Source of the DNA: Agarophyton chilense
Taxonomy: Eukaryota > Rhodophyta > Florideophyceae > Gracilariales > Gracilariaceae
Assembly: GCA_030374765.1 (NCBI GenBank)
Contig: JARGXX010000111.1
Location: forward strand, 124,001-188,000
Direction of reading: 5' to 3'
Length of the DNA: 64,000 nucleotides
Translations under genes and position numbers: made by a program
In this document: positions 4,811 through 31,520 of the stretch, piece after piece
How positions within the stretch are numbered: the first letter of the stretch is position 1
Layout: each line of letters begins with the position of its first letter
Notes under the pieces: generated by a model
Told to the model about the DNA's origin: nothing
Database searches by the model: none
What the model saw: only the letters and a program-made list of their open reading frames with translations

Positions 4811-7765
4811 ATGTCGAGGGCAAGAGGAAGGAAACGGTATAGCTGGGAGATATCTTCTCATAGCAGAAGCGTTCGGTTTTCGAACGATGACGACCAATAA
4901 GAATTGAACAAATATGAGGAGGAAGACACAAACAAGATGGAGGGAAAAAGACCTTTTACGTGGCAAGGCAGAAACCAGAGCATTCCGGTTGAGCCATTTG
5001 CGTTAAGTAGATCAGTAGTCTCTAAGTATCTAAACAATGCTAACTCACAGGACGCAGAGAAATTCTCATACCATTAAAATGCGGTCCCAGAACAGGAACG
5101 ATTGGAAGAATCGCAACAACACTCAGGCATCGATGTAAGGGATGCTTCTGAAATGAGAGAAGCACATGGTTTTGGCGCTGTTGCTGTCGTTGAAGCAATC
5201 CCTGGTGATGTGGCTGGCGTTGCAGCGTTCTGTGATGAAATAGAGATGATGTCCGACAGCATTGCAAGCGAATCTTTTGCTACTTCAAGCTTTTCCAATC
5301 CGTACTTCAATAATGCTGAGACCAATCCAAAGATGATTGAGTTCAAGCGATTTGCTTGCATAATCTACGCAGACGAGCTCTCGAATTTTTCGCAAAGAGG
5401 CATGAAGATGCTTACAAAGATGCCTCCAATAAGTTCTCGATTCCAATATCGAACTATGATCACTTCTGCCATACGCCAGTCCTGCCTTTCTAAATCATAC
5501 GTTCGAACTTGCCCAAATGGATACGCAGCTCAATCCGGGAGGCTCCGTTTAGCTTCCACATGTCTCGTTTGCGATTGATATTGGAAGAAAGGTAATGAGA
5601 AATTTATTTCTTGAGACCTTCATCAGCATTGAAAGGACTTTGTAGGTCCAGTAATTCACTGAAAGGTCTCCTTGAAGGTTGTATGAGAGCGAAGAAGTCA
5701 CTTTTCGAAGATAAAGCGAAGACTACAGTTCATGATTACTATCATGGAAATATGTTTGTTCGAAATCACGCTGATAAGCTTCTCAAGTGGTACAGTGACG
5801 GAAAGGAAATCATCGTGTTCCTCACACTTTCCACTGATGGCTTCGAGTGTAAAAGAAATTGCAAAGGGGAAACAATATCATCGAAGCTAATTGTATCCAG
5901 CGTGCTGAACTTTTCTCCTATGTGGCGGAGCCAAGCATCCAATTCAATCGTATTTGGAATCATTCCAGCTTCACACGATTCAGAGTACTTTGACACGTTC
6001 ATGAGCGAGATCGTTCTGAATCTGAAAAGCCTTGAAAGTGATATCTTGGTTTCATGTTGCGATGGTAAACTGCGGAGATTGAGAGCACTCGTGGTGTATT
6101 TCATAGAAGACTGGCCTGCGGCCTCAAAATTGTTGGGCTACGTAGGGCAGACGGGCAGTATCTTTTGCCGATTCTATTTGGATAAACGTGTATTTGTCAA
6201 GGAATATAAATGTCTTTTTGCGGTTCCAAATGTCTATTCCAAGATCATCAAAAGTATCATCAAAACAAGCCGGCCCTAGAATACTGGCGACGTCATTAAC
6301 TCTAAATGTGGAACCAGGCGATCGAAGTCTGATGTTGTATCGACTTGGAAGGCACTTGGATCTTCCAGAACAGACGAAAGGGTCCGAAATCAACTCATCA
6401 AAACCACAGGAACAAAGCGAGCGTCATGCTTGAAAGGACTTTCCATCGACTACATCTACTCTTTCCCATATGATGTTATGTACATGCTTCTGCTTGGCTG
6501 GGTAAAGCATGTCCTGCGCCTTTTGACCGGTACACATCCACAACATGCGAGTTCTAGCGCCCTTCCAAACTATTGCATACCCCAGCAAACTCTTCAGAAA
6601 ATCAATGAGGCCATGGAGTCGTCATGTGCTGTAATACCCCCCTCGTGGGGTCGATCCACTTTTTCTCTTCACAATCTTTCGAAATAAAAAGCGGAGGATT
6701 TGAAACGGCATGCTGACTTGTACCTGCTTCTATTCTTCCACAAGTTCAATGTCCACAGGAACATTCTTCTTCTTTTGGAACGCACAGCCGATATGATATC
6801 CCTAAGTTTTTGATTCAATAGTACAATGATTTTTCCAGCAACTGAAAGTTATAGTGTAAGTAGGGTATGCGAGATTCGTTGACTTATTCGACAACAATGG
6901 TACTCATACGTACTGCTTGCCACCAACCACCTATGCAATTCTTCACCTTCCACAACTACTTCGAGAATGTGGCCCTCTTACCATTACATCCCAATTTGTT
7001 GTTGAACGAAATCTAGGAGAGATCGAGCGAAGAGTTCAAAAAAAATAGATTCTCACAACACATATATTTCACAAGAACTTCAAACTTCTAGCGTTAGAGA
7101 TTTCAAAGGATTGGAAAACTCCTCCTTGCGAAAGACCGGTACTCGCGGCGTGGACCGAAACGAGCTGGGTCCGAATGACAACGACAGAAACCATGAGTAG
7201 TATATCCGAGTTCCATACTAGTTCTCAGTGTCTTGGTGCTGTAGGTGTAGAGATTCGAATACGGAATTGTCAGAAAAGTGCTGTGAAACTGTTTATCCGA
7301 GAGATCTTTCCCGCCTACTACAATGATTTTATCATCACATTTGCAAGATGCTTCAAGAAGTTGAGGGTAACCAAAGCATCACAGCAATTCGTGGTTGAGA
7401 GCAAGGCCCCCCATATTATTCGTTCTCGCTATCCGGGACGCAATTCACGCCAGAAGTTCTGCATTGCAGCCGAATTAGATCCGGTATCAGAGGAATCTTT
7501 TTGTTCACAATCTCCTACCATTACAGCTCCACAAGCACAGAAACTGAAACACTTGTACTATGGTAGCGTCAAGGATATCATAGAAGTTACTCTCGAGGTT
7601 GGATCCATGCGGGTAGTGACGGCATTTATGGAGGTAAAATGGCGGTACGGTCTTCGACAAGATGAGAGTTTTGATCTTGTGTACACATATAAGAAAGGCA
7701 GTGGCGAAATCACCACGGAACCCGCTGTTTGTATTCAAAGACTCGTAGAATTCCTTGATATTTAA
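4811..7765 (+). mobile_element. Tnp2/Plavaka-like (CMC/CACTA) transposase, copy 1, broken
   Basis: The likely start is the ATG at 4811 (a basic head with the RKRYSWE motif, parallel to GRRSRWE in the copy at 16 kb). Frame 2 runs to 5578 with stops near 4898 and 5070. Frame 1 continues from about 5611 to 6279 with the catalytic-region signatures LSTDGFE, SCCDGKLRRL and DWPAASKLLGYVG. Frame changes follow at about 6280 and 6430, then YDVMYMLLLGWVKHVL, the cognate of the DxMHLxxLGxxKHLL motif of Plavaka transposases. A decayed gap (6690-7170) leads to a C-terminal 196-codon frame (7175-7765). The order and spacing match the second copy throughout. Family assignment rests on these signatures and the DDE-type layout. 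No CACTA-type terminal repeats were found. It is non-functional as read: at least two stops and several frame changes. Confidence 0.65.
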
Positions 7766-11658: not shown

Positions 11659-11841
11659 TTACTGTTCATTACCATAATATGTACAAGCTAGGCATGACTT
11701 GCATACATTATGGCTCGGATCGCTTGAGCCGTTACGGTTGATGTCAAAAATGCTCCTGAGGAGCTCCACCTTCTCCCGATGGGCCTCCTCATCGTTCGCA
11801 TTGTAGAGCAACGCCCAGTTAGGGGATACTTGAAGATGCAA
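11659..11841 (-). CDS. small hypothetical frame, 60 codons
   Basis: The ATG at 11841 opens a hydrophilic, well-mixed peptide with a NANDEEAHREK helix and four cysteines near its end (one CKSC pair). The composition is more protein-like than surrounding frames. It may be the last piece of a decayed gene. No family recognised. Confidence 0.2.
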   Translation of the reverse strand: MHLQVSPNWALLYNANDEEAHREKVELLRSIFDINRNGSSDPSHNVCKSCLACTYYGNEQ

Positions 11842-12236
11842 CTCATAGAATGAGGATTGAACCCTCCGAGGGTTATGATTATGATCCCCTCTAAGGTGTG
11901 CTGAGGTGGCACTGTTTTCTGGTTATATTTCGCCTATAAGGGAAAATTCGGATGGGCCATGGTTGAATTGGCCCCGTGATACACGTGGCTTAATTTTGGC
12001 ACCGATTTTCGGATATTTGTAGAACGTTGGACTTTTGGGCCCTAACAGTTGGATCTCCACGTGTAGGCCCTGAGCAGGTGTGCACTACTGTAGAGTTTAG
12101 TTAGTGGGCCCTACTTAGGGAGATGAGATCTGACAGTCCGAAGTTCAGAGTAAATGGTAACCAAGGATGGTCTTCGATACCTTTAGAGGTTCTTCGTCGC
12201 CATCGTTTCGGCCTTACACCCCGGAACGGGCTCTGG
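11842..12236. other. no supported gene
   Basis: No frame of note. Several short direct motifs (GGGCCC, CACGTG) give it the look of an LTR or promoter remnant, but no second copy is present in the window. Confidence 0.3.
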
Positions 12237-12799
12237 TTAGCAACGCCTGCGTAGGGACACGACTCCACTTGGAGAGTGCCCACGTTTGGGTTCCGTGCAA
12301 CCACCCCCTTGGGACCCCTCAGACGACCTGCGTGCACGATACCCCGTGGGGGTTCTGCTTACTTGTTGCGTGCTTTTTGTGTTTCCTTTCGAGGACAGGT
12401 TTTCGCCCCTGTATTGGGTTCCTTTTGTTGTTTCGCCCCTTTTCTGGTTCTGGGGTTCGGTGCCTGTTAGTGCCCGACCCTCGCCCCGTTTTTCCTCGTC
12501 GTCGGATTTTCCCCCATTCTTAGGGATACCCGTACCCATTCCCGATTCAACGGTTTCTACCCCTCACCTCCGTCGGTACTGCCGGAATCTCCCGTGGGAG
12601 TTACACCCCACACTACGGGTGGAACAGAGGGCTCTGTCTCTGAGTCTGCCTCCCCCAGGGAGCAAGGCTTCGAACACCTTGAGAGCACTTCCCGTCGCCG
12701 GGGTTTGCTCCACACGCATGACGTAGCCTGGGCCTCTTCACATGGATGACACTCAAATATCGATCGAGCAAGTGATTGCCAGCGGTTCACGCCGCACAT
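12237..12799 (-). other. hydrophilic minus-strand coding-like remnant
   Basis: Two minus-strand frames (12799-12557 and 12539-12237) are strongly hydrophilic. The second is rich in Lys, Arg, Gly, Ser and Glu and lacks any domain. It could be the disordered head of a retroelement gag or a host basic protein. The plus-strand frames over the same bases are Phe/Pro/Ser-rich shadows. Confidence 0.25.
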
Positions 12800-15440: not shown

Positions 15441-15971
15441 CTAAGGAAATGATGTTCTGTGTTCACCTGCAGCACATATACGAAAGAGATGTGCATCACT
15501 GTAGCCACTTTGCGAAAGGTCGTACAAATGGGCTGGAATGTCTTTCTGAAAAGTGTGTAAGAGAGTGGTGCTGCGGTTGGTTTTTGCGCTTAGTTGAGTG
15601 ACGAACCTCTCTATAGGAGCTGTTGTTAGAGAAATTTAGAGTTGGCTGTGGTCGCCATGTCTCAGGTTCGGGGTGAAGAGCGAAGACGAAGACAACAAGC
15701 GAAGCAAAGCACGGAAGCATAACCTCACGAAGCAATCGTCTTTGCGTAAACCTTGAAAAGACGCCCCACAATGCACGCGCGACTTGAAAACGCCCCTTTC
15801 ACACGTCACCCGCATGCACCGCGCCTCGATTGGCCAAAAGGCGCGGCGCTTTGGCCTTCTCGACTGATTTGTCAATTGAGCGAAGGTCGGAGAGCATAGA
15901 ACTAGATTTGCTGAGTAACTTGTTCTAGAGCCCAAAAGCGCAGGGAGAAAAGCAATCCCCGGGTAGAAGGA
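15441..15971. other. spacer between TMEM230-like fragment and transposase copy 2
   Basis: Minus-strand frames (15496-15771, 15636-16046) lack domains. The second mostly overlaps the transposase start and is a shadow. An upstream exon of the TMEM230-like gene could lie here, but no candidate shows family residues. No transposon terminal repeat was recognised. Confidence 0.35.
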
Positions 15972-18754
15972 ATGCAGCAAGTGAAGCAGGTGGGGAAAGG
16001 AAGACGTAGTCGCTGGGAAGTGAAGCCTCACATCGATTTTGGGCATGTTTCTACTTCAAAATCTTATGATCGTCCTTCTCCAGACCAGTTTCAATCACAT
16101 TCTACAGAATTCAATAACGCTGGAGGCAATCCGGAAGAAATAGAAGACAGCGACCAGTGTTCAGCCGAGCGACAAGAGGCCAAGATAGATATCGAAAAGA
16201 TTGAGGTTTTCGCTGATGACGAGCAAGAGTATCTGGGATCCCTCACACACAACGAAGCAAACAAATCGAACCATGAAGTCTACGAGCAGCCCCGACTGCC
16301 GAGATCTGATGTTTCAGACTCTGAAAACGCTATTGAACAGGCTGTTGAAGGCTTCGATAGGGACAGCGAAGCCAAATTCCCATTTTCTCTGTCCATGAGC
16401 ACTTTTGATGGGCGTGATGAATACGAATTTGACATTAAAGATTCTCTTCCTGCTCAGGAGTTCAAAAGACTTGGGGGATTTCTTTTTATAGCCGAAGTTG
16501 TTGGACTATCGCAACGAAGTATTCAGCGTCTGTTATCAGTTGCTCCATTAAGATCAAAATGTTCGTATCGGTCGCTTCTTAATTTTGTTCGAAGAAGGTC
16601 GATGGTTCCAAAGTACTCCCTCCAGATGTGCCTAGATGAGCACGCAGCTGGCAGGAGATCTTTGAAAAACGCTTCTGAGTGCCCTGAGTGCTCCAAATCA
16701 CTGATGGGGTCTTCATCAAAGACGTTCTGGTTTGTAAGACCATCTGATATGATAAGCGCCCTGTGTAGAGCTCCGCAATCCTTTCCAGAAATCGCCGCTC
16801 GGTTGAAGCGTGCAAAGGAGTCCTTGGAAAAGCTGCGGACGTTGCTTCCTTTCAAGACTACTATAACGGCCTTCTCTTCCGGACGTTGCACGGCGATAAT
16901 GTACTCAAATGGCTCGAAGGACACGACAACAACCTTTATGTATTTATCCCTCTTTCGACAGATGGTTTTGAGGTATCGAAGACGAGAAATAGGGATGCGT
17001 TGTCCTGTTGGCCTGCGGTATCCATAATTCTCAACGACAGACATTCGGAAAGGTCAAAAGCGGTCAAATGCAATAATCTTTGCAGCGATTCCAGGAAATC
17101 ACAAGTCCGAGTTCTTTGATTCCTTCCTTCATGCCATCGTCAAAGATCTACGAGCCTTGGAAAAGGGAGTCAATGTTATGTGCGCCGATGGAAAGCTAAG
17201 AACTGTGTATGCATATTGTTGTTCTTTACCTCGGACTGGGCAGCGGCGTCAAAGGTACTTGGGCTTGTAAGTCATGCAGGGACCAAGTTCTGCCGATTCT
17301 TTGGTAAAGAGAAAACATATATGAGGAGTTGTAGATCTTCCGTTCCGATACCAGCCATTGATAGAAGAATAATACGAAGCTTTGCTAAGGGAAGAGTTGA
17401 TTATGATGTTGGAACAATCACCAGTGTAGAGTTTCCTGAAGCTCAAAACGCAGCCCAAATGCCTCCCATATGGAAGAAAGTTAAGAGTCTCAAGGACGGA
17501 TCCAGGGAGAAGAAAACCTTTCCTCGAGCAACAGGTGTATGCAGATCTTCCCTCCTGCGGAAGCTCACAATATCCTTTCCTCACTCCGCACCATACGATG
17601 CAATGCATCTTGTACTCCTTGGGTGGGTCAAACACTTATTGAAACTCATAACGGGATGTCATTCAGGGGTAGAGAAACTGGAAAAGCTGCCAAGGTTTGT
17701 TTTCCCCGAGCACCTCTTGTCAAAAATTAACGAAGGAATTGTGAATTCTGGCGCAACAATTACATCTTCATGGGGCCGGGGTCCATTCATACTCGATAAT
17801 TTGTCGAGATTTAAAGCGGAGGACCTGAAGAAGCATGCAGAATTGTATCTATTTTCCTTTCTACACTAGTACAAAGTGGATGAAAAGATGAGAGATGTGT
17901 GGGAAAAGACAAACGAGATGGTAGGAATTGTGTTTGACTATGAATGCAGGCCCTCGCAATGTCCAAAGTTGAAACTGGTTACAGAGCAGCTTTACGCACA
18001 TTTCGTTGAGCTGGTCCCCAATGAAGAGATCCTCGGTTTCTGTTTTACACAGACAACTCATGCCATACTGCATCTTCCAGATATGTTAGAGCAGTGTGGG
18101 CCCCTCCCTACCTCCTCACAATTCCTTGTGCAGCGATTGGTTGGCGAGATTGGACGACGCGTTCATTCAAGAAAGGATCTTTCATCCCATATACTTCTCG
18201 ATAATCACACTTCGTTTGCATTCAGAATAATGAACGGTGGTTTACCGCCAGTAAAGGAAGGAAGCGATGACAATGTTTTGGAGGATTACTGCCAAGAAAA
18301 GTTTCATACTGCCGGAGACGATGAATATGAAAGTGATGCCCTTGGTAATAGAAAAGGAACACCGATGGATACTGTTAATACTAACCAAGTGACATGTATT
18401 CGTCGGTATGTTGAACAGAATATGCCAATATGGCACTTGGTGTCATTCGAAGAACTGAAAATATATGGCTCTGCAAGAATCAAGGTTGGGGAAACTAAAG
18501 TCTCTATCGAATCGGAAACTTGTTAAAAAATGTGAAAAGAAAGATCCGGAGATAGTAGACTAAAGTTTTGCGTTTCGGCTATGTTTATTCCGGATCGGTT
18601 CTCCATATCCAGTGCTTCCAATTCCACTGAAAATGAGGACGTCGTCAAACCGATGTACTATGGAATTCTCAAGCACATATGGGGATGTTCCATAGTAGGG
18701 TATGCCGGGAACATAAAATCAAGAGCGAATGCAGTTTTTGTCGACCTATGGTGA
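15972..18754 (+). mobile_element. Tnp2/Plavaka-like (CMC/CACTA) transposase, copy 2, better preserved
   Basis: The ATG at 15972 opens a 351-codon frame: basic head (GRRSRWE), long acidic linker, then a helix-rich domain with a CPECSKS zinc-binding-like pair, ending at 17027. The catalytic core continues in another frame from about 16886: FIPLSTDGFEV, a gap with a frame change near 17110, VMCADGKLRT, then from 17180 DWAAASKVLGLVSHAG-x-KFCRFF, YDAMHLVLLGWVKHLL (the DxMHLxxLG-x-x-KHLL signature), SWGRGPFILDNLSRFKAEDLKKHAELY, a stop near 17869, and an open run to 18526. After a break, 18589-18754 resumes with MYYGILKHIW, aligning to LYYGSVKDII in copy 1, so the element extends past the 18526 stop. 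It aligns to copy 1 over its whole length. About four breaks, so inactive as read. Flanking terminal repeats not found. Confidence 0.7.
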
Positions 18755-24070: not shown

Positions 24071-24571
24071 TTATGAAAATGTACTGCCAAGCCGAAAAAA
24101 TACGTTGAAGTCGCGCAAACGCCTGTCTTTCGACCCATCTTGCATATCGAAAAAAGTCACATACCGATGAACCTGACAGAAATATTGACTAGGGCCCGTC
24201 ACAGTTCCGCAGAGATAGGCTGTGAGTTCCTCCTCACTGAAAGTTTTGTAAGAGGAAGCAAGAAATCTTTCCAAGAATGCGGCGCCGGAAGCGTTCTTGC
24301 GACGAGTCTGCAGAAGGTACTCCACGAAATTGTCGAACGTGACATAGCGTTTCGGATCCCGAGGGTCTCTGAAATCGGTGTTTGCATCACGGACTGCCAT
24401 GAACGCCCTCCATACGGTTGTAAAACTTTCAGCGTTAATGACGGGGGCTGGGCAACCACGAGCTTGGAACCCTGAACTTGAGGAAGTTGTAGAACTCCCT
24501 TCCCGGGAAAGGGCCTCCATTAGCACGAGCGCACACGGTTTGTTTGAAGAAGGATTGAACGGGAACAGCAC
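24071..24571 (-). CDS. hypothetical protein, 166 codons, open frame
   Basis: The ATG at 24571 runs open to a stop at 24071. The peptide has a Ser-rich head (about residues 18-40), then a globular, well-mixed body with helical segments (VWRAFMAVRDANTDF, FDNFVEYLLQTRRK, FLERFLASSYKTFSEEELTAYL) and an aromatic C-terminal part. No membrane segment or catalytic motif is recognised. A second in-frame ATG lies at residue 18. Codon and residue use is better balanced than in surrounding frames, and this is one of the few long uninterrupted protein-like frames in the window. It may be a single-exon host gene, or the preserved 5' exon of a larger gene. The plus-strand frame at 24378-24707 is its shadow. 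Confidence 0.45.
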   Translation of the reverse strand: MLFPFNPSSNKPCALVLMEALSREGSSTTSSSSGFQARGCPAPVINAESFTTVWRAFMAVRDANTDFRDPRDPKRYVTFDNFVEYLLQTRRKNASGAAFLERFLASSYKTFSEEELTAYLCGTVTGPSQYFCQVHRYVTFFDMQDGSKDRRLRDFNVFFRLGSTFS

Positions 24572-24814
24572 GGCATATCGTTTTGAGTTTCAATGGGTGC
24601 GGAAGTGGGGGGGGAGGGGGGAGGGTCGTAGCAAGAGATGTTTCGTGGCGTTAGACGGCCGTCCGCGGTTCAAAAAAATGTCTCTCGTTAGCAGAGATGC
24701 TAGATAGGCAGGAGATGAGGGTTGGAGTGTGCGGAAACAGTAGAACGGACGACGACGTGGATCAGATGAAGAGTCTTCCTATTTCATCCATGTTCTCAAA
24801 GTCTCCGAACGCTT

Positions 24815-25622
24815 GGGGGCCCCTTTTTGACATTGTCGACGGACAATGTCAAAACCGGTAAGGAAGCGCAGCTGCGGCCACCCAGAAACTTGCATATATA
24901 AATATATCTCACCCATGTAGGGGACGGATCGCCCTTGATCGCCTAAATGAATAGTACCGGCCAGTGAATTGAACCCCCATAGTCGAATGGCCCAAGAATG
25001 GCGATAGTCTATAACTACGGAAACTAGAAAGTGCTCAAACCACCAGTCCCGCTAGCACGGCAGCAATCTTCTCGCAAATTAGGATGATTGGATGGTAGTT
25101 TAAAACATCTTGCAGCCCTTAAAACCGCTTCTATCGCCTTTCAATCGTTTAAAACTTCCCCGCCCGGTTCCACATAGAGAAAGCGTGGCGGATCGTGACG
25201 GCTCCTGGGAGGCTGGTGACTGACGAGGTGGCGACTCGTTTTAATCAGCTCGCAATTACGGAAAGGCAGACCTAAAATATCTACGAGGTATTTTCAGCGT
25301 GTAGTGTCAACGTATACCTATTATACGGGATTGACTGTATATTTCTTGTAATATGCACAGCTAGTTCTGGTGTCTACACACGTAGTAATTACTAAGGATT
25401 GTTAGTTACAGCGGTGGCTGTGTGTCCGATTATTTATACTGTTATCGTTGAAGTTCTCTATATATATCGCGATACCGTTTGTTAGTGCTGGATTCATTTA
25501 CCACTTGGCCAGTGAGCCAGTAGCACCCCCGCTGCACGCAACGGCAAATTGCCGGGTGGGCACAGCTGCGCCTCCGGACTATTTAGTAAATTGTTGGTCG
25601 ACAATATGAAAAAGTGGCCCCC
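24815..25622. mobile_element. small non-autonomous element with palindromic inverted-repeat ends
   Basis: The left end 24815-24840 (GGGGGCCCCTTTTTGACATT and on through GTCGAC) matches the right end 25597-25622 in reverse complement at about 22-23 of 26 bases. Just inside the left end is a perfect 13-bp stem (24825-24837 with 24842-24854, loop GACG). The right end has a decayed counterpart (ACAATTT...GTCGAC). The 0.8-kb interior is non-coding. This fits a MITE-like or fold-back DNA element. No clear target duplication flanks it. Confidence 0.5.
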
Positions 25623-25647
25623 TAAAAGAAACCAAAAATCAACATTG

Positions 25648-25691
25648 AGAGGGCCATTTTTTGATATTGTCGGGCGCCAATGTCAAAATTG
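25648..25691 (+). repeat. third copy of the palindromic element end
   Basis: The segment from 25648 repeats the left-end sequence (GAGGGCC, a T run, GATATTGTCG) followed by its partner arm CAATGTCAAAATTGG. It lies only 25 bases beyond the right end of the 0.8-kb element and has the same orientation as that element's left end. It could be the left end of a second, perhaps larger element running rightward. No matching right end was located. Confidence 0.5.
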
Positions 25692-26026
25692 GTCTCCCCT
25701 TGGTTACCAGAAATGGCGGGGTGGTACCGAGTATAGGAGAGCGTGTGGAAAGTGCGCAGTCAGAGAAAAAGTTCCCAAACTGAATACAACCTGCTTACTT
25801 CCCCGAAACGAATCGAAGGGCACCAACCGGGCCATTGCGCAGCGTTAATGGCATATGTCAGTGCGCGTTTCATTTAGAAACCTTCCGGAAGAGGTCTCGC
25901 AGTTCCGTGGCGCCTCTTGAAATGATACCTACCCAGCAGTCGTTTAGTCCCGTTGTCCGTGCGACCGTCTGTGATAGGTTCCGCAATTCTGTGGCGCATA
26001 TCTAGGCCCCTCATCGATCGTATGGA
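25692..26026. other. spacer, no gene seen
   Basis: Lies between the third palindromic end and the next coding-like region. No frame with support. Confidence 0.4.
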
Positions 26027-29000
26027 ATGGGTCACGTGATGGTGAAGAAGAACACGAACGACGACAACAGAAGGCTCAATCTGAGATCTCCACGATCTAA
26101 GGCGCCTGTTTGGACAGCTCTGAAGAACCCCATGCCTACGACGCGCAGCGGTGAAACGCAGTGGACGCCGAAACCAGGGAAAGAGATGACTTTGGGGGTG
26201 GCCACGCCGAATGGTGTGACGAAGGGCGCTGGGAATGCTTGCGTTCGGGGTGACCATGATGCCAAGTGTCAGGCGACGGGTTATTCAGTCAGGAATTTGC
26301 ATGCACACAATCTGGTCGGTAAAGGAAGACCTTGTGGTCGTGTGGAAGGTGTTTATTTTAGAGGAGAAACAAATGGAATTCCCCTATCGGTTCAAGATCA
26401 ATGATACCGTGCCGGACACTTTGTGGAATATGCACAGCAACGCTTTCTATTGTTGGGCCGTCAATATGATTAAAACGTATGGTCATGAAGCCGAAACAGC
26501 TCGACCGAATCCAACGTCCACTCCGTCTCCATCACTAGCGAGGACACTTTCCACCAAGATGCTGAATGGTAACAGCGCAGCAAAGGCGAAGTCTAAGTCG
26601 ACTCTACAACCTACTACCGTGAGCGACGAGGACGGAGATGAGATGGTACGCAAGGGATCGTGGCGTCTTAGTTTCAAGACGACTGGCGCCACCGGGAACG
26701 CGAAGGTTGTAAAACTGCGCGACCCGATCAAAGCACCGAGCGCGACTCTCATTGTCACTCCGTCAAAACTCTCGTTTAAACCTGCAACGAGCAGTGAGGA
26801 AAGTGGGCTTCAAATAGAATCTCCGGACACTGTCGTTTCCCGATTACCGAAGGCTCTATGGACGGGTTGCGGCGAGGGTGAGAGCCAAGCAGCGCATCAA
26901 AATAAAGTGGCCGAAGCGATTGTAGTGGCAGGAAGCAGCGCGCCAATGGAATTAGTTGAAGTGGTGTCCCAAAAGCAGCCTGTTGCGGGAAGAGAGGGTT
27001 GTGGTAATGGTGAGGTGTAGTTCGTGGGTTCGAGGGTTTCGGATACCGAGGCTGAGGTTGACTTCTTCGGAAAGGGAGATGAGCTGCATTCCGATGATTT
27101 CGACGAAAGACTACTGGATTCCAGTTTTGACACGAATTTTTACACATAAGATACGTTGTTTGTGGACATTGCCCTCATTTAGAGTCAAGAAAACGGTGCG
27201 TGAGAATTGGACATAGCTCACAAGAAGAATGTCGATAATCTAATTGAGCTCTGCGGAATCTTGGGGTCTTTTGGAAACTTGAGTTTTGCGATTCTGGGTC
27301 CGAAGAATGCAGGGGAAGAATATTTTCAGGGGACTTCAATCGTCGTTAAGTGTACTTTGGTGGACGGATTACATCGTTTGAATGTGTACCTCGAGCTAAC
27401 GGAATGGAATGCAACACTTGTGGATCTCTTTCGCCGGCCGAGTGTATCGTTTTGGAGACCAGTTGATGGGCCGCCAATGAACATGTCTGAGGTGATATCA
27501 ATTGGAAATGTGCTGAACGATACGTTTGCTGCGGCAAGAGAGACGTCATTTCGAGACAAAATCCATTCCATTCCTTCGTTTAGGAAAACTATCGAGGAGT
27601 ACGGGAACGTGGACATCAAGAACGTCTCGCGCACAATGCTTCGTCGTGCCTTGTTGAAGCGCAAGATCAAAGGCTTGTCAAACCCGAAGAACATGTTGCG
27701 CTTCGCTGACATGATTTGAGAATGTACTTGGACAATGGCTTTATTTCGAAGATGAAGGAAATGTGTTTTAAGTACCCGGAGCTGGGCATTACGCACTTTT
27801 CGAATGAGAAGTTCTTCAAACTTAAGGTCAACTGTATGAATTTCGCGCTGGAAGTTCTGCAGGTGCAGTATGACGTGCCACAGGCATCGAGAGGAACTCC
27901 GTCATTTCCTTAGAGAGAATGATTCACTTCTCTTAAATGACGACGAAGAGGCAGAAGAAGACCCAAAACTTCCAAATATGAAGAAGTTCGATGATGAAGT
28001 ACCTCAGATTCCCCCAGAAAGTTTGCTGAAGGTCGAGGAGGATAATTAAGTGAGAGACTTAGATTGGGTGAAGTACGTTAACATGTTGCCCAGCAGGTGG
28101 CGGCCAGCAACTGAGAATGTCAACACGTGCTTCGCCCGAACGATATACGGCGTGTTCACCACGCCTTTTCTGGCATGAAGCGTTCTAGAAGGTGTACAAC
28201 ATATAGAAACTGGAGAGGAAAGCGTTGGGAGAGGGTGCCGTGGTACTGAAGCAAGATGACCACATCAGACTCTGGTAGCGGGCCATAAGCGAGGACAACT
28301 ACGTAATGGTGTACTTCGCGAAGAAAACTAGCGAACTGAATAAGTGTGGATTCTGTGCGTTAGAAAGGTTTTGAGTGGATGACGGGATCGAAGACCAGGT
28401 TAATTCGGAGAGCGAATTGATGGATGGTAATGTGAGTGAGAAGGTGCTTGGATTCTTCGAAGAATACTTCAGTTTCCAAGAAGATATTCGAGAAGCAGAG
28501 AACCGTCAGTATCGGGACCCATTTTCATTGCAGGGGAGCCAGCTGTTCAAACGGGCCGACTCACAGGGTCCACCAGGTATATGAAGACGCGGAGGGAAAT
28601 TGCGGACGAGATGAAAAGAGCGGGGGAGACTCACTGGGTGGCGAAGGGGCGTGCTATTTTGGATGCGTGCATGGGTCAGATATGTGTGTGCTTGGGATTG
28701 GAAGACAATGTGATGTCGGAGCATAAGATGTATGCACCGAAGACGGGAGGTAGGGTGCTGTGTACTGGTCGAGGCTGCACTACGCAGAAGCTGCATACCG
28801 ACATTCAGACACTGACAATCCCCGGAGAAGCTGAGAGGGAAGATTCCTGGATACTTCATATTAGCTTCTGGTAAGTATTCATTCCCATTGTATGTGTGCG
28901 CGAGGTCCCACAAGCACTCCGCAAAAACAAATGCGGAGTTTGAAGCGGTTTCTGGAAGATATGCCACAAGGAAGTTCAGAGTACCGCCGTTATCTATCTT

Positions 29001-29416
29001 CATTAGAACAGGAGATGTGTCCCGTGGGGGGGGGGGGCAGGGAGCAGAGATGCGATCATGGCGCAGAATTTCTGTTCCGGGACCATATGTAAATGGTACC
29101 GAAGGAGTACAGCCTTTCGGATGCGGATCAAATTCAGTCGAATTTCAGAACGAGGTTTATGGGCGATGAAGAGCTGAGACAAAAGGACAAAAATGGAATG
29201 AAGGGATATATACTATTGATACAAGTGGGCAGCGAGGAAGAGGGCTCTGTTAATAATGGAGTGACAGGAGATCGTTTAAAAGAGGGCAAGGACTCAGAGA
29301 GCGGAAGCGACGGGGATTATGACCCCAATGCTGATGGAAATGATAACGAGATCGATAAGATTTATACTCAAAAGGGGGGTGAGAAGGGAAATGAAGATAT
29401 GGAAGAGGATAATTAG
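26027..29416 (+). pseudogene. large unrecognised gene remnant with 2OG-Fe(II) oxygenase-like C-terminal part
   Basis: Protein-like composition persists on the plus strand for 3.4 kb over several frames. Pieces in order: a basic head (26027-26400); a soluble piece with a Pro/Ser-rich linker (about 26300-27020); a well-formed domain (27207-27720) with LVDGLHRLNVYLEL, a PPMNMSEV motif and a basic helix (MLRRALLKRKIKGL); a short helical piece and acidic linker (27720-28050); a piece at 28190-28580; then 28581-28870 with LCTGRGCTTQKLHTD, and 28892-29160 with PPLSIFIRTGDVSRGGGG. The H-x-D followed about 80-90 residues later by a GD-x-x-x-GG segment is the layout of 2-oxoglutarate/Fe(II) oxygenases, though the expected distal His is not obvious. 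A last frame (29093-29416) is strongly acidic. It has several breaks. It could be a host gene or the gene of a large unknown mobile element. Confidence 0.4.
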
Positions 29417-29607
29417 TGAGAAGTACTTTTCAGTAGTGGAGAGCGATTAGCAACCTCGTAAACAATTCATTGTTCTAAATGATTTATCTAGGGCGAATTA
29501 TCTTTGCTGTATTCTCCAAGGGAGTTTTTTACATTTCTTTCAGGCCTTTAAGCTCAAAAACGCGTAGCACTCGTGCGTTTGAATGTCTTTTTTCACTTTC
29601 ACTTGTT

Positions 29608-29676
29608 GCGTAAGAACAGGATTGATGATAAGATAGATATTGAATATCTATCTTATCATCAATTCCGTTCTCACCC
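29608..29676. repeat. palindrome: perfect 20-bp arms, 3-bp loop, longer imperfect stem
   Basis: Arms 29621-29640 and 29644-29663 are exact reverse complements (ATTGATGATAAGATAGATAT) around the loop TGA. Pairing continues outward imperfectly for about 13 more bases on each side (GTAAGAACAGG with TCCGTTCTCAC). This is far longer than expected by chance. It may be a fold-back element or two inverted transposon ends joined head to head. Confidence 0.8.
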
Positions 29677-30118
29677 CCTTCAAAAAACTCCCCACATTTC
29701 GAAGTGCCCTTTATAAACTCTTTCTTCTTCTTCCCGTCTTCCTCATCAACCTTTCCTTACCCACGTCCAACACTCTTTGTGGAAGTGGGAGAAAGACGTT
29801 GAAGAAGAGAGAAGGAAGTGTACTGGACGACTTCTACGAGTTGCGATTTTCGGAAAGGGAAACGCCATCTTCGCTCAGATGATCGTTGTTGTAGGAGCTA
29901 CCATTTTGATATCAGTTGATGTGGGAAGGGTTTGAGCCATACCGCCGTTACTCACATCTAGCTTCTGTCATCCCAACATCCATAGTAAACTAGCAGCGTC
30001 TTGGCCAGTCGTTTTTCATTCATAAGTTAGAGGGTGTTGTTCTAGAATCGAAATCCAAGTCTAGCTGGCACTCTAAAAAATAAATAAAAATTGCACCTGC
30101 ATCCGCCATTCGCCATTT
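29677..30118. other. no supported gene
   Basis: Between the palindrome and the copia relic. A short plus-strand frame at 29640-29882 starts inside the palindrome and has no domain. The 5' end and LTR of the copia relic should lie here but were not recognised. Confidence 0.35.
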
Positions 30119-31520
30119 TTGGCAGATGTTTTGCCGGATATTTTGCTGCATGCAAGTGTGGCTGCTACTACTATTTCGAGAACACAGACGCAGGTCAAGA
30201 AGTGTGACGACGAATCTCTTAATCTCAAGGCACGCATTGCAGTGCACGGAAACAAAGATAGAGACAAATATACTCCTCAACAACGATTCATCTACCTGTC
30301 CTTCGGTAGTAATCCAAATTCTATTATCTCTGACAACCGTTTCCAAGTAGACGCTTGACAAGATTGGCTTCAAGAGTGCCTTTCTGCAAACTGACGCCAA
30401 ACTTGATGTCTATATGATACTGCCACGACAGTGTAAGTCTAGGTATCACCAATATTGGTTGTTGCTTTCCGCTGCATGTGGACTAACTGATACAGGTGCT
30501 GAGTGGCAGCAGCTTAGTGACGATGTGATCAGAGGTTTCGGATTCGAGAAGCTGTTGTACGTTCTGCAACTTTTTTACAGCACCGAAGATGGTCGCATCT
30601 CCATCATTGCTCTCAAAGTCGTAGATGACATTCTTTTTTCTTCTGAAAAAAAAACTTGTCCTTACTCATCGAAAAGATTGGAAGTGAGTATAATTTAGGG
30701 ACTATTGTGCATGGTCCAGGACAGCTCCACTTTTACGTACTTTTGGTACATTAGAACGACGACAGCACAATCTCTGTTGATGGTAAGGAGAATTTGCAAG
30801 CCTTCGAAAGTTATGAACTGAGTAGACAACGACGCAAACACTCTGAAGAATTTCTCAACAATATCGAAGCCTCAGCATTTGGCTGGATGAACAGCTCCAT
30901 AGGTTGGCTAGTCATCGCTGCCTCTCCCTTCTGTGCCTACGATGCGAGCTTTCTGCAGCAGAAGAGACCTTCTCCGCTCGTCAAAGACCTCATTGCTCAA
31001 ATTAACGTTTTGAAGCAGTTGAAAAGATGCGGTTCAACACTGTATTACACCACACCGACAGAAAAACTGGAATATTAAGGGTCTATAGTTGTGTTCTGCG
31101 ATGCCAGTGGAAAAAGTGACCATGGACAGCTTGGAATTTTTAAAGGGCTGTTGTTTGCAGAACTTCGCCTCGAATCTGTCTTTCGCACGATCCTTTAGGC
31201 TCGCACAAAATCCGTCAAACGATGTTGTCAATTGGCTCTGGCGAGATTTCAGCGGCCGGTGAAGCTATTGGTAAGGAGAAAGTACTCGTTAACGCTCTTC
31301 GAATCATTTTCGGTATGGAAATTGAAGTTTGGATAGTTTTCGACTGTGAGGACCTGTATGGAACTTTGTCTACCTGCTGAAATGCAACTGATCGATCCAT
31401 TTGAAGAGATTTCAGCGTGATTAGATACAAATTTGAGACTGGGAAAATCGACCGCAGGGTGTGGATTCCAGAAAAATACAACCACGCAGACCCTCTCACA
31501 AAAACTGAAAGCCAAATGGT
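30119..31520 (+). mobile_element. Ty1/copia retroelement relic (reverse transcriptase to RNase H end)
   Basis: A fossil copia-type pol on the plus strand. Signs in order: the start of the RT domain (LNLKARIAVHGNKDRDK, then SAFLQTDAKLDVYM), the middle of RT (LSAACGLTDTGAEWQQL, ALKVVDDILF), the connection region (SIGWLVIAASPFC), an RNase H segment (VVFCDASGK), and the typical copia C-terminal string WIPEKYNHADPLTK. Gag, protease and integrase are not recognised and LTRs were not found, so this is a 5'-incomplete relic. It is broken, with many breaks, and looks old. Confidence 0.75.

Follow-up and report, generated by a model that had tools for sequence, protein, structure and literature searches.

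Dioxygenase genes of the TET/JBP type are known as cargo of fungal transposons, Plavaka elements among them (Kojima 2025; PMC12730594); according to the accessible part of that paper, these transposon-borne enzymes are thought to erase cytosine methylation, and the type carried by Plavaka shows an H-x-E motif. In red algae, large EnSpm elements with four to five open reading frames have been reported from Chondrus (2013, as cited in the accessible part of PMC6431247). By 2015, Repbase listed 1,181 C. crispus families (PMC4455052, accessible part), so that relatives of the element described below may sit there without a named function. No report of the oxygenase-like gene described here on red-algal elements was found in the titles and abstract openings that we searched, a coverage that leaves most subscription journals outside.

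Here, we analyzed a stretch of 64,000 nucleotides from the red alga Agarophyton chilense (the window). We consider it probable that it holds a dead, left-truncated Plavaka/EnSpm (CMC)-type transposon of the cut-and-paste class, with a cargo gene whose C-terminal part would be a dioxygenase countering a silencing mark on the element. The existence of the element and the cargo status of the gene family are well shown by the observations below; the vehicle is an ordinary one, the cargo unusual. The Chondrus EnSpm elements, as far as they are described in that source, resemble the present ones in their red-algal host, their size class and their combination of an EnSpm-related transposase with extra genes, and judged by description alone these families are the likeliest close relatives. 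The fungal TET+ Plavaka/EnSpm elements, as presented in the accessible part of PMC12730594, share with the algal elements a Plavaka-type transposase, a dioxygenase-like cargo inside terminal inverted repeats (TIRs) and 2-bp target duplications. However, the algal termini read CGTCW.. (CGTCT or CGTCA), unlike the TGT..ACA of PlavakaA and the CATCA..TGATG of PlavakaB, which are the two kinds of end seen in the fungal TET+ Plavaka elements, and unlike the CAC..GTG of EnSpm given in the same source. Moreover, the algal protein has H-x-D where the fungal PE type has H-x-E, and it lacks a match to the TET/JBP profile.

Over 26027-29416, the plus strand of the window is protein-like throughout, with a broken reading frame; none of its pieces matched a Pfam family above cut-off. 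In tblastn, a relative of 1316 codons (L044) aligned to 26292-27713 (residues 69-498, 23% identity, four stops), to 28267-29154 (residues 937-1236, 31% identity, six stops) and to 28515-28817 (residues 1014-1114, 43% identity, no stops), the matches being spread over two frames. These alignments confirm the gene remnant on one strand that an earlier note, made from the letters of the window, had proposed. The N-terminal region aligned with the stop-free relative P0002 in two pieces, 26033-26329 and 26310-27320, at 44-46% identity and with four stops in the second piece. A middle domain, drawn at 27207-27720 in the earlier note, is real (Table 1) and contains the motif DGLHR at 27363. By eye, and as a lead only, this DGLHR/GLHR motif may be ParB/sulfiredoxin-like; Pfam gave no ParB profile match for the domain, and a model of it, with a pLDDT of about 45-75 for the block of residues 10-94, gave no match in Foldseek. 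Several relatives carry about 0.6 kb extra at window position 27900. Towards the C-terminus, both signatures that had been pointed out from the letters, H-x-D and GD-x-x-x-GG, are present: H-T-D is retained at 28794-28802, and GDVSRGGG begins at 29011. The latter shows an Arg in place of the distal His (GDVSR), and the frame of the window copy breaks near this position. The predicted acidic tail is there as well. Between the window and the related locus L012, differences at codon positions 1/2/3 amount to.122/.146/.114, a pattern that is the mark of neutral decay; the window copy of the gene is dead.

Table 1. Features of the element copy in the window, and positions of the third gene in related loci
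Feature	Position	Strand	Basis
Left-most retained element part	24103-24994	+	84-86% identical in four of 20 fetched loci (L010, L011, L012, L014)
Segment of about 0.5 kb without counterpart in four copies	24995-25500		L010, L011, L012, L014 contiguous across the junction
Main part of the transposon copy, with its right end	25501-30190	+	closest copies about 83-87% identical at the DNA level
Imperfect inverted repeat, element-internal	25577-25626/25645-25694		arms 72% complementary
Cargo gene, N-terminal region (broken)	26033-27320	+	tblastn with stop-free relative P0002
Middle domain	27204-27716	+	aligns to residues 330-498 of L044 (1316 codons) at 30% identity, E 5e-18
Cargo gene, linker region (broken)	27879-28389	+	58-63% identity to P0003 in tblastn
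Fragmented C-terminal part resembling a 2OG oxygenase	28515-29154	+	tblastn with relatives
Acidic C-terminal tail	29093-29416	+	64% identity to the tail of P0001 over 107 residues (alignment A2)
Near-perfect palindrome, 32-nt arms, element-internal	29610-29641/29643-29674		arms 91% complementary
Right TIR, CGTCTGTGTTCTCGA	30176-30190	-	position corresponds to that of the right TIR in full copies
Third gene	L017:1660-2711, L018:7850-8566, L016:1867-2802	opposite	N-terminal module in common with the oxygenase-like protein

The element is longer than its gene. Its left-most retained part corresponds to internal sequence of full copies, and the left TIR together with about 3.4 kb is gone from the window; in the full copy A68, about 3.4 kb more plus the left TIR lie upstream of the equivalent of 24103-24994. 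Of the segment that is missing from four copies (Table 1), locus L015 has the last 140 bases (from 25361). Homology stops at 30184-30210 in 14 of the 20 loci of 9.9 kb that were fetched around DNA matches. L010, L011 and L012 are homologous to the window through 30190-30194 and L014 only to 27577, while L009 begins at 25838 and L015 at 25361, both finishing at 30190. The right TIR is the sole match to the TIR pattern in the window at up to two mismatches, with 0.21 expected by chance. The window copy is the left-truncated right-hand part (24103-30190) of a TIR-bounded DNA transposon. Two palindromes that the earlier note had taken as possible boundaries do exist. As the element extends past the limits assumed there, from 24103 to about 30190, both are internal to it: homologous DNA in other copies flanks 25577-25694 on both sides, and six loci (L009-L013, L015) match the palindrome at 29610-29674 in inverted orientation as well. 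The idea that the palindromes are the element ends is thus ruled out by homologous DNA running beyond both.

A search of the genome (79.8 Mb in 135 contigs) returned 64 matching DNA pieces, the window itself included, ranging from long pieces with 85-87% identity to short ones; one copy often yields several pieces. Three full copies, A68, B22 and C95 (on contigs C68, C22 and C95), measure 9.66-9.68 kb each, and a fourth, D128 (on contig C128), 13.1 kb. All four have TIRs in common, about 5'-CGTCWGTGTTYTCGG, and the element ends read inwards about 5'-CGTCTGTGTT(T/C)TCGG; the left end of A68 deviates (CATCTG), and the right end of C95 has further changes. Dispersed copies with shared ends, which the earlier note had named as the mark of a mobile element, are therefore found in this genome. 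That note had also named two results as speaking against its reading, the lack of a profile hit and the lack of other copies; the former was observed, but other copies are plentiful.

The TIR pattern occurs 435 times in the genome at up to two mismatches, compared with 31 matches for a reversed-pattern control. Pairing convergent sites within 30 kb, among 99 sites listed, gave 15 pairs, with lengths of 4.5-5.5 kb (four pairs), 9.7-11.0 kb (four), 18.5-19.4 kb (six) and 28.1 kb (one). The flanking dinucleotides match in all 15 pairs. The 11 pairs with TA are biased because the TIR pattern itself contains TA; the four non-TA pairs (TG, AA, CA, CA) agree without exception and therefore support a 2-bp target duplication. 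D128 is flanked by TG on both sides, and the flanks of A68 are unequal. A duplication of TA only, as in ESTA-like elements, had been read from loci chosen with the TA-containing pattern, and 2-bp duplications of varying sequence replace it.

As to the source of mobility, the Plavaka transposase profile (PF18759) gave 123 genome matches, all above cut-off; open frames of at least 1,000 codons contain 26 of these matches. One match (C128:452090-452851) lies inside the full copy D128, and pieces of the transposase were also found by tblastn in L021, L023, L024 and L026. The element is Plavaka-like, of the Plavaka/EnSpm (CMC) kind. The earlier note had suspected cargo, or the core, of an undescribed mobile element; a cargo gene beside a transposase is indeed what related copies hold, but its vehicle belongs to a described class, as the Plavaka-type transposase in related complete elements shows. 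By tblastn, no transposase was found in the 9.7-kb elements A68, B22 and C95, which are of the window's own kind, and this kind is therefore probably non-autonomous. Likewise, no transposase was found in the window copy.

We mapped the gene family with P0001, a stop-free 336-aa piece of the oxygenase-like part from L017, which gave 123 protein matches in the genome. After 20 fragmentary matches had been dropped, including the window itself and four copies present as fragments only, 103 places were used. At 56 of these, the oxygenase match follows a same-strand Plavaka match lying no more than 20 kb upstream (range 5.7-19.3 kb), and in 41 of the 56 pairs the distance is 10.9-12.5 kb; any other arrangement of the two within 20 kb was seen at one of the 103 places. 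At the remaining 47, that of L044 included, no Plavaka match was found within 20 kb upstream. In 33 of the 56 pairs, a third gene lies between Plavaka and oxygenase, always on the opposite strand. This gene was mapped with a query from L019, of whose 115 matches 91 were used; the 24 dropped were mostly pieces of kept copies, along with three short separate matches. Its first ~190 residues are common to the oxygenase-like protein. These gene positions and strands yield a complete arrangement of the form [TIR] Plavaka > ... < gene 3 ... oxygenase-like > [TIR]. The gene remnant in the window thus belongs to an accessory gene of the transposon family, which stands beside the transposase in related complete elements.

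The contents of the TIR pairs, compared with 14 of the 115 third-gene matches taken in, vary around this arrangement. The pairs C10:918485-937298 (minus strand) and C2:40668-59138 enclose all three genes. Plavaka and oxygenase matches are found together in the 18.5-18.9-kb pairs of C2, C10 and C12, the last of these with no third gene among the matches listed, while the C21 pair holds Plavaka and the third gene, with no oxygenase among the matches listed. The C22 pair, which is copy B22, holds an oxygenase match alone. Four short pairs (C3:24938-29751, C3:97008-101524, C1:1548338-1553176 and C1:1564188-1569645) contain Plavaka and no listed oxygenase; these pairs of 4.5-5.5 kb are probably short elements without cargo. 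The six remaining pairs, those on C13 and C88 included, hold none of the listed matches, so that 11 of the 15 pairs have no oxygenase among the matches listed. A rule by which every element of 18.5-19 kb carries three genes was weakened, as the C12, C21, C13 and C88 pairs do not show all three among the matches listed.

The L044 group, which is 39% identical to P0001, raises a different reading, in which the family is a host multigene family secondarily picked up or hit by transposons and the L044 group represents the host gene. Such an origin would account for 13 places of near-equal score, 12 of which lack a Plavaka match in the 20 kb upstream (at the remaining one it lies 18.2 kb away). However, the near-identical scores of the group suggest recent amplification, and 15 of the 26 places with frames of at least 1,000 codons stand in the transposase arrangement. 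We therefore regard a host family as very improbable and retain the reading as transposon cargo. Four L044-group copies (C33:3325, C96:2832, C95:3867 and C106:358686) lie less than 5 kb from a contig end and point outwards. Telomere-like repeats open contig C95 but are absent from the contig ends at C33, C96 and C106; a subtelomeric family was accordingly rejected, contig breaks at near-identical repeats explaining the positions equally well.

The relatives show what an unbroken protein of the family looks like. Open frames of at least 1,000 codons occur at 26 of the 103 oxygenase places, the longest having 1,335 codons. L044 itself (contig C92) has an open frame of 1316 codons (P0005), and the C-terminal part of a second family (L056, whose place holds a frame of 1247 codons) shares 53% identity with that of P0005 over 250 residues. 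Differences between these two unbroken relatives at codon positions 1/2/3 are.336/.328/.628 (250 codons, a single pair compared), a pattern of purifying selection. Both contain H-T-D-F, followed at +76 by the His of GDVFHAG and at a further +16 by the Arg of RYHMY (H1107, D1109, H1183 and R1199 in P0005, with the same spacing of 76 and 16 in L056). The pattern H.[DE].{50,110}GD..H.{10,20}R arises in 0.4-1.4% of residue shuffles and its loose form without GD in 26-85%, and therefore only the tighter pattern carries weight.

The H-x-D...H...R order with its spacing (76, 16) is what the protein shares with the 2-oxoglutarate/Fe(II) dioxygenase superfamily; neither a profile match nor a structural one was obtained for it. 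Searches of the 2OG-like part against Pfam, NCBIfam and PHROGs at E up to 10 gave nothing relevant, with scattered hits to unrelated families at E about 0.06 or worse. PDB sequence searches likewise gave nothing relevant (best E 0.57, unrelated), and hhalign to E. coli YbiX and AlkB, a weak test with single-sequence templates, returned 0.1-0.2% probability. AlphaFold models reached a mean pLDDT of 48 (decayed copies) and 44 (unbroken sequence plus pieces), too poor for fold comparison, and Foldseek gave no match at E 0.001 or better for the second. Among viral contigs, no relatives of the intact protein were found, nor of E. coli YbiX for a reference profile, and the one match among phages (E 3) is irrelevant. 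Alignments A4-A6 are partly misaligned and were left out of the conclusions. The 2OG assignment thus rests on motifs, given the lack of a relevant profile match and the two poor structure predictions. Of the 2OG-like C-terminus proposed in the earlier note, the motif and its spacing are borne out by two unbroken relatives, but the profile search gave no match. On this basis, the C-terminal part is likely an Fe(II)/2-oxoglutarate-dependent dioxygenase.

Alternatively, the accessory gene might end in something other than an oxygenase, with HTD, FHAG and RYH serving a structural, nuclease or DNA-binding role (e.g. TnpA-like). A second protein, one that binds the TIRs, can occur in EnSpm elements, and the N-terminal region that the oxygenase-like protein has in common with the opposite-strand third gene looks like a DNA- or partner-binding module; a second TIR-binding protein would agree with both, and with a 2OG reading that lacks profile and fold support. 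Nevertheless, the fixed 76/16 spacing in PPxSxFIGRGDVFHAG...RYHMY resembles a 2OG core, and the three motif residues are kept in two relatives as far apart as 53% identity over 250 residues, which leaves a non-oxygenase C-terminus rather unlikely in our estimate.

Given a dioxygenase, its closest model would be the fungal one. A TET/JBP-type enzyme proper, demethylating the 5-methylcytosine of the element, would fit the presence of HxD and of a Plavaka transposase with a dioxygenase-like gene inside TIRs, the layout of the fungal TET+ Plavaka elements in the accessible part of PMC12730594. Tet_JBP (PF12851), however, gave no hmmscan match to the proteins and none in the genome, in a search whose control was silent everywhere; the motif is H-x-D in place of the H-x-E that the same source gives for the Plavaka-carried PE type. 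Moreover, no C5 DNA methylase (PF00145) was matched in the genome by a six-frame, intron-blind search that could miss a split or diverged gene and whose control matched in 10 of 14 genomes. Taken together, these observations render a TET/JBP enzyme improbable. The genome otherwise has the contents of a red alga: 13 matches to the phycobilisome linker (PF00427), seven of them on contig C39 and the rest on six other contigs, nine matches to light-harvesting proteins (PF00504), four Piwi matches, each within a long single frame, and three contigs that begin with CCCCTAAA(A) repeats are all consistent with such a host. A fungal host, which the abundance of Plavaka might suggest, was rejected on the linkers, the light-harvesting genes and these repeats; hydrophobin and elicitin searches, with silent controls and thus no bearing on the matter, returned no match.

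For the dioxygenase-like cargo, we envisage the following scheme, in which activity, substrate and counter-silencing function are purely what we infer. Judging from the conserved motif, the C-terminus would act as an Fe(II)/2-oxoglutarate-dependent dioxygenase. It might, by analogy, act on the element's own DNA or chromatin, oxidizing a silencing or defence mark. Removal of the mark may then let the transposase be expressed, as has been proposed for fungal transposons with TET/JBP enzymes. As the genome yielded no C5-cytosine methyltransferase, 5-methylcytosine is probably not this mark; methyladenine, thymine or a methylated histone would be likelier substrates. The 9.7-kb copies like that of the window would have moved in trans, since they keep the cargo gene and show no transposase. 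A broader proposal is that the Plavaka-like giants of a red alga with no detectable C5 methyltransferase independently acquired a large oxidative enzyme, from a dioxygenase branch that profile libraries do not cover, and direct it at a silencing or defence mark that is not 5-methylcytosine; this is conceivable, though we lean against it. A red alga whose genome yielded no C5 methyltransferase but which has what looks like a parallel arrangement could be used to ask what mark such enzymes act on, and as 26 of the 103 places have frames of at least 1,000 codons, the protein is open to direct production and assay.

Other parts of the window contain further mobile or repeated DNA. On the plus strand, three successive long open reading frames (370, 249 and 218 aa) at 15915-18526 have no Pfam match above cut-off. 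A 226-aa open reading frame at 5599-6276 (plus strand) matches Transposase_21 (tnp2, PF02992) above cut-off (E 9e-8) and is a remnant of a second, CACTA-type element. Finally, 0.9 kb of the window (11802-12714) is 95.6% identical to a stretch of contig C68 outside the element and represents another, younger repeat.
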